From Lanius collurio (lineage: Eukaryota > Chordata > Aves > Passeriformes > Laniidae): a DNA stretch of 64,000 nt. The stretch is from positions 53,342,381 to 53,406,380 of the forward strand of contig JACBWW010000003.1 in NCBI GenBank assembly GCA_020086605.1, read 5' to 3'. The notes beneath the pieces were generated by a model that was not told the DNA's origin, made no database searches, and was given only the letters and a program-made list of their open reading frames with translations. The position numbers were made by a program, and so were the translations under genes. Positions 42,679-43,062 of this stretch are shown one piece after another (position 1 is the first letter of the stretch; every line of letters begins with the position of its first letter).

Positions 42679-43062
42679 AAGGTTATTGCAGCTAGGGTTT
42701 TTGGAATTGTAAAATGATATAATGTAAAGAAAAATTATGGTTTCTTTTTGAAAAATGATACAGGATAAAGTATTTTCGTCCATGAATCTGCTATTGTGAA
42801 AAAGAACCCCAAAAGTAATGTTCCAAACTTAGAAGAAGGAGGAGTAGAATTTAAAATTGTGCAAGGAAGAAAAGGCCCACAGGCAGCATGTGTTACAGGC
42901 CCTGGGGGTGCTCCTGTGAAAGGCAGTAGATATGCTAGACAATATCCCCATAATCCCTATCCTTTCCCCTATCCCACCTTCCCCTTTTATCCCATGTCCC
43001 TTTATTTCCCAAATTTCCCTTTCTGGTTCCCCTCACAAACTAGGCTTTTCCATTTGCCATGA
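42679..43062 (+). pseudogene. Captured Y-box-type cold-shock domain with altered tail
   Basis: Codons at 42679-42936 encode a cold-shock domain of the vertebrate Y-box family (YBX1/YBX2/YBX3), an RNA- and DNA-binding fold. The opening KVIAARVFGIVK matches the family's first strand. The RNP1-like motif is KNYGFF (family NGYGF), the RNP2-like motif is IFVHESAI (family VFVHQTAI), and the end is VTGPGGAPVKGSRYA, which marks YBX rather than LIN28. By eye it aligns almost without gaps, about one codon shorter between the RNP2-like motif and VEF. Two in-frame stops break it: TGA at 42715, where the family has Trp after VK, and TAA at 42766, just before the RNP2-like motif. The domain is contiguous, while in host YBX genes it is split by introns, so it came from cDNA. 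After the domain the usual basic/aromatic islands are absent and a Pro/Phe/Tyr-rich tail runs to the TGA at 43060. The exact YBX parent is not clear. Confidence 0.85.
42937..43053 (+). repeat. Pyrimidine-rich degenerate repeat coding a Pro/Phe/Tyr tail
   Basis: A run of tatccc, cctttc and ttcccc-like hexamers covers about 42943-43030. In frame it reads PYPFPYPTFPFYP and similar. It is unlike the Arg-rich C-terminal islands of host Y-box proteins and may be viral, or host sequence from elsewhere. The C/T-rich strand may also bind polypyrimidine-binding proteins, but that is speculation. Confidence 0.6.

Follow-up and report, generated by a model that had tools for sequence, protein, structure and literature searches.

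Acute transforming retroviruses carry a host gene joined in frame to 5′ gag and are replication defective. VL30, chicken ART-CH and the TRIM and LARD elements combine long terminal repeats (LTRs) with a short internal region without pol, are presumably moved by helpers and are mostly described as non-coding or as gene remnants. Non-autonomous LTR elements are usually regarded as passively moved by helpers. Endogenous retroviruses (ERVs) of crocodilians have captured KIT-ligand (CrocERV29) and nectin3 (CrocERV31), and several copies, with purifying selection on the captured frame, are reported for them (PMC4299795). Here we analyse 64,000 nucleotides from the shrike Lanius collurio (assembly GCA_020086605.1, contig JACBWW010000003.1, positions 53,342,381 to 53,406,380; this whole stretch is called the window), in which a cold-shock domain (CSD) of the Y-box type lies between two LTRs. 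The evidence supports its placement in a family of short non-autonomous LTR retrotransposons of endogenous-retroviral descent, with a fusion of a Gag-like domain and the CSD as their sole gene. The family probably belongs to songbirds.

A Y-box cold-shock domain within a multicopy LTR element

The forward strand of the window encodes a Y-box CSD at 42679-42936. With its stop codons masked as X, the translation matched PF00313 (E 1.9e-14; 53.7 bits against a curated cut-off of 27), and its best matches in the PDB were the zebrafish and human YB-1 and YBX2 domains (E 2.7e-25 to 1.7e-24). The original prediction, made from the letters of the window, had given the coordinates and motifs of a YBX-type CSD correctly, and its expectation that YBX proteins would be the best match is borne out by the PDB search, which places the YB-1/YBX2 CSDs first; it had not mentioned, however, that the frame is interrupted by two stop codons, one in the W65 codon (42715) and the other at 42766. 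The paired LTRs with a perfect 6-bp target duplication that it had described are also present, TGTGTA flanking 41120-43620 on either side. A 24-mer of the LTR is seen twice in the window, where 0.00 occurrences are expected. Chance resemblance was ruled out by the PF00313 and PDB matches, by this 24-mer pair and by the presence of the same structure elsewhere in the genome.

The shrike genome was searched with the PF00313 profile (1.097 Gb in 2132 contigs), yielding 1213 first-look CSD candidates; 150 were scored, and all 150 exceeded the cut-off. We analysed 40 copies, comprising 39 distinct places from the 150 scored together with the window copy, in a sample drawn from the top CSD scores with long frames preferred. 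A flanking repeat pair is present in 36 of the 40. In one of these (L028) the script picked up a longer unrelated repeat as the pair, yet matches to the LTR of L019 (a recent copy, given its LTR Kimura two-parameter distance (K2P) of 0) also flank the CSD; in another (L030) the pair measures merely 103 bp. The four copies without a repeat pair still show one or two LTR matches. The original prediction would have failed if every other copy of this LTR family had ordinary gag-pol here; the copies read instead carry the CSD between the same LTRs, 36 of the 40 with a flanking repeat pair.

Exact 6-bp target duplications were detected in 20 of the 40 copies, every one different. The script missed TGTGTA in the window, where the repeat extended beyond the LTR ends, and this duplication was seen by direct inspection. 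No two of the 36 paired copies have a common 5′ flank over the 250 nt compared. Segmental duplication was ruled out as the source of the paired copies by their unshared flanks and the 20 distinct duplications, and insertion of a single-copy pseudogene by the many copies with the same structure. Because LTRs and target duplications occur at unlinked places, the element moves via RNA.

Complete copies measure about 2.3 kb and consist of an LTR, one frame and a second LTR. The internal region (median 1893 bases) leaves no room for pro-pol-env in the copies read; in intact copies it is filled by one frame, and a single frame of 504-509 codons runs across most of it in 11 of the 40 copies. AATAAA occurs in the LTRs of 35 of the 36 paired copies. 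Most of the 14 copies inspected have TGG... starting two bases past the LTR and a purine run preceding the 3′ LTR; in clean copies these take the form of a TGGTGGAGAATGCGGGCA-like candidate primer site, for which tRNA-Ala is the putative primer, and an AAGAAAGGGTGAAT run. LTR K2P ranges from 0 to 0.137 among copies, and a frame of at least 450 codons is kept in nine of ten young copies (K2P <0.035) versus one of twelve old ones (>0.1), in a sample biased by the preference for long frames. The idea of retroviral capture stands as regards a host-type CSD within an LTR element, but the CSD belongs to the only gene that a non-autonomous family with many copies carries, and not to one transducing provirus. 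The captured Y-box domain is not free-standing: a Gag-matrix-like domain precedes it in the same frame.

The fusion protein, its corvid relatives and purifying selection

In intact frames the matrix-like domain is joined to the CSD by a basic linker with much Arg, Ala, Pro and Gly, and a Pro/aromatic tail follows, ending in PMP-GG or similar. Full Y-box proteins carry an alternating basic/acidic C-terminal domain; this is absent from the shrike, crow and jay copies, in which the tail is rich in Pro and aromatic residues. A structural model of the jay protein places five helices between residues 11 and 101 and the CSD strands at 286-360, with the remainder disordered; the overall predicted local distance difference test score of 42.8 makes the model usable for helix assignment only.

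A protein search (6 matches among 28 candidates) identified P0001 and P0002 of Corvus moneduloides, which match the CSD, the preceding stretch and the tail; the remaining four, which were YBX2 and YBX2-A-like proteins, aligned along 63% of the query. A profile search that scored the 7989 candidates sharing most words gave 20 matches, 12 of them Corvus clusters that comprise 38 sequences, P0007 alone contributing 24. A query with the N-terminus of P0016 retrieved P0025 from the Florida scrub-jay (Aphelocoma) in addition to P0016 (2 matches among 126 candidates). Of the 12 Corvus clusters, four (P0007, P0011, P0015 and P0016) carry the matrix-like N-terminal domain, as does jay P0025, and all five have the same fusion open reading frame; both genera belong to the Corvidae. 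PF00313 scores of the crow and jay proteins lie between 67.7 and 78.0 bits. Matches to three viral contigs (L001-L003) were dismissed as relatives, their frames looking unrelated to the element, and no relatives appeared in further viral-contig searches or in phage records.

In the window the CSD is no island, as relatives match the internal region from 41556 through 43050. The corvid matrix-like domain matches 41556-41702 (60-64%) and onwards, tblastn giving 60% identity over 50 amino acids with P0025 (E 5.7e-11) and 64% over 45 with P0016. An open frame in the linker (42082-42714) continues into the CSD, and the frame that ends NPFAMPMGG-stop at 43091 resembles the C-termini of the crow and jay proteins. 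The matrix-like pieces are nearer P0016 and P0025, and the CSD is slightly nearer P0001 (0.62, versus 0.58 for P0025). In P0015 the matrix-like domain is 90% identical to that of P0007 and the CSD 89% identical to that of jay P0025, making it a mosaic. Two corvid Y-box elements, P0015 and P0001, look recombinant between two subtypes of the matrix-like/linker and CSD parts. To judge from their sequences, such mosaics would fit template switching between co-packaged RNAs.

Codons were compared by the Nei-Gojobori method, taking pairwise medians for each part of the protein. The median ratio of non-synonymous to synonymous substitution rates (dN/dS) was lowest in the matrix-like part (0.23, 29 copies) and the CSD (0.27, 40 copies) and higher in the tail (0.57, 38 copies) and the linker (0.67, 23 copies); subtracting the LTR decay of each pair lowered these values to 0.14, 0.10, 0.34 and 0.58, respectively. 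The constraint is specific to the reading frame. The pooled ratio of non-synonymous to synonymous differences (pN/pS) was 0.39 in the true frame of the matrix-like part (0.69 and 1.27 in the wrong frames), 0.34 in that of the CSD (1.11 and 0.95) and 0.60 in that of the tail (0.89 and 1.05), whereas for the linker it was nearly independent of frame (0.75 versus 0.80 and 0.80). Jackknife errors of the pooled values were 0.017 to 0.042, and leaving out single copies changed little. Moreover, constraint persists at dS 0.4 to 3, with medians of 0.30 and 0.21 for the CSD and of 0.17 and 0.24 for the matrix-like part. Purifying selection acts on the matrix-like part and the CSD across the copies read.

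The window copy itself, with its in-frame stops and frame changes, is a dead element (Table 1). Its LTRs agree at 256 of 284 aligned bases (90.1% identity; K2P 0.107). At avian rates of 2 to 3.3 substitutions per site and billion years, this divergence would very roughly place the insertion 16-27 million years ago. Elsewhere in the window, an imperfect tandem repeat (25-bp unit, 4.9 copies) lies at 26952-27073.

Table 1. Parts of the Y-box element in the window, in window coordinates
Feature	Positions	Strand	Basis or remark
5′ target-site duplication TGTGTA	41114..41119	.	flanking six bases compared
5′ LTR, TGTGGAGG...ACAACA, contains AATAAA	41120..41410	+	
Primer-binding-site position, degraded in this copy	41413..41430	+	cleaner copies: TGGTGGAGAATGCGGGCA two bases past the LTR
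Gag-matrix-like domain (predicted), split over two frames by one frame change	41556..41860	+	tblastn with P0025 and P0016
Arg/Ala/Pro/Gly-rich linker, GC-rich; stops at 41974 and 42079	41861..42678	+	relatives P0002, P0007, P0016
Y-box cold-shock domain; stops at 42715 and 42766	42679..42936	+	PF00313 and PDB matches
Pro/aromatic tail, common to crow and jay proteins; frame changes once ahead of its C-terminal end (43091)	42937..43091	+	
Polypurine tract AAAAAGAAAGGGTGAAC	43322..43338	+	
3′ LTR	43339..43620	+	
3′ target-site duplication TGTGTA	43621..43626	.	

Possible roles of the fusion protein

A selected protein in a family without its own reverse transcriptase must aid another step, and because selection acts on the protein from each copy, that protein should help mainly the RNA encoding it. 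The best explanation overall, to which we give somewhat more credence than doubt, is that the fusion protein binds, stabilises and packages the RNA of its own element via the particles of a helper retrovirus. The CSD, probably acquired from the mRNA of a host Y-box (YBX) gene, would bind the element RNA; the matrix-like part would take the protein to the Gag of the helper or assemble with it; the helper would supply capsid, reverse transcriptase and integrase; and the outcome would be an element RNA that is both stabilised and packaged. YB-1 reportedly stabilises the RNA of human immunodeficiency virus and affects the production of murine leukaemia virus vectors and mouse mammary tumour virus (PMC6040738). 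Helpers are possible because the genome holds Gag_p24 elements whose open frames are long: a search with PF00607 (Gag_p24) gave 261 candidates, of which 150 were scored, and at least 150 loci lie over the cut-off. In several of the Gag_p24 loci the open frame reaches 500-800 codons or more, which suggests that retroviruses were recently active in this genome. A decayed Gag_p24 fragment with four stops was also seen in L024 (C52:670093-670467, minus strand), on the same strand as the CSD of a Y-box element and about 1 kb 3′ of it.

The key RNA contacts reported for the YB-1 CSD are K64, W65, Y72, F74, F85, H87, K118 and E121 (PMC9928419). Among the 40 copies K64, Y72, F74, F85 and K118 are always kept, H87 is kept in 39 and W65 in 38, the other two having a stop there.

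Several observations weigh against packaging of the element RNA by a Gag-like fusion. The N-terminal domain appears Gag-matrix-like on the strength of its position and five predicted helices; it matched no Pfam Gag family, no match to a PDB or viral fold backs a matrix identity, and its hhalign scores against two p24-type Gags (18.0 and 11.7) fall within those of 60 shuffles (mean 11.1, maximum 18.7). Four Gag N-terminal regions (L052-L055), two of which were those used in this profile comparison, showed neither LTR nor matrix similarity to the element by BLAST. Choosing copies by CSD score and long frames lowers the dN/dS of the CSD; the matrix-like part lies outside the CSD scoring, yet was subject to the same long-frame choice. 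Finally, the RNA contact E121 is replaced in all 40 copies (by Q in 38, R in one and a stop in one). This position is Q in all four corvid proteins checked and E in the nine host Y-box domains compared, and its replacement might alter RNA or 5-methylcytosine preference.

The same change bears on the origin of the domain. In trees built on 87 columns only, with the root assumed in the host, the element CSDs fall on one side of a branch in one tree (99/96) and the host rows on one side in the other (99/97); young copies are near-identical. Because they share the E121 change and group together, the element CSDs would fit one capture followed by diversification.

In a bolder version of the packaging model, somewhat less likely than not, the host Y-box CSD took the place of the usual capsid/nucleocapsid part and left a minimal Gag of two domains. 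This protein would recruit its own RNA, with a cis preference strong enough for purifying selection to maintain it in a non-autonomous family; if true, the RNA-binding function of Gag would here have been obtained by capturing a host protein. Other roles for the protein have to be weighed against packaging through a helper. The CSD might instead serve expression, binding LTR DNA or element mRNA and so raising transcription, stability or translation. Y-box proteins do bind both mRNA and DNA, YB-1 is reported to stabilise viral RNA (PMC6040738), and the RNA-contact residues are retained; we nevertheless consider this unlikely, as it leaves the equal constraint on the fused matrix-like domain unexplained.

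A target for the fusion protein in the host or in silencing, for instance as a host-selected gene or as a decoy against RNA-based silencing, strikes us as improbable: purifying selection and the many intact frames would agree with it, but the low dN/dS holds not at one locus but across numerous independent copies that dispersed recently and whose LTRs are decaying, and the loss of frames with age fits selection at the level of the element, even if the copies were partly chosen for long frames. The window copy alone, with two stops in its CSD, looks like a hitch-hiking pseudogene, as if a processed YBX pseudogene had been inserted in one ERV and copied along without function. Such an accident is very improbable given the frame-specific constraint on the CSD and the matrix-like part on either side of a nearly unconstrained linker, and given the same fusion in crow and jay. 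Least credible of all is that the apparent constraint stems in part from the recent amplification of a few masters and from sampling by CSD score; while 150 of 1213 candidates were scored, with copies then chosen among them, and young copies are near-identical, the constraint persists at dS 0.4 to 3 and is robust to leaving out single copies.

Comparison with known systems

A family with over 1000 candidate loci in one genome (1213 first-look, 150 scored) that has retained a selected RNA-binding fusion protein suggests a strategy different from passive movement, namely that of a parasite of a retrovirus which brings its own RNA-packaging or RNA-protection protein, derived from a host gene. The element family makes it testable whether a host RNA-binding domain can substitute for nucleocapsid, and its many natural copies of known relative age allow change in the captured domain to be tracked.

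The shrike element resembles the acute transforming gag-onc viruses in the in-frame fusion of a host gene to a gag-type part and in being replication defective; it differs in that the captured domain is a general RNA-binding one and in that selection has maintained the fusion throughout the history of a large germline family. With VL30, ART-CH, TRIM and LARD it has in common paired LTRs and a short interior without pol, and unlike them it keeps a selected RNA-binding protein. No description of the capture of a Y-box or cold-shock domain by such an element was found in the accessible portions of the literature searched, mostly without subscription papers and preprints; the papers compared include PMC4992247, PMC5006616, PMC4299795, PMC6523648 and PMC2329609.

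The vertebrate proteins YBX1, YBX2 and YBX3 share with the element the order and spacing of the CSD and the residues K64, W65, Y72, F74, F85, H87 and K118, whereas the Gag-like N-terminus, the other tail, the changed E121 and the LTR setting set the element apart. CrocERV29 and CrocERV31 are likewise ERVs that captured host mRNA, with multiple copies and reported purifying selection on the captured frame (PMC4299795). Their capture is, however, a separate open reading frame beside pol or in place of env, whereas in the shrike element the captured domain is fused to a Gag-like domain and forms part of the only gene.
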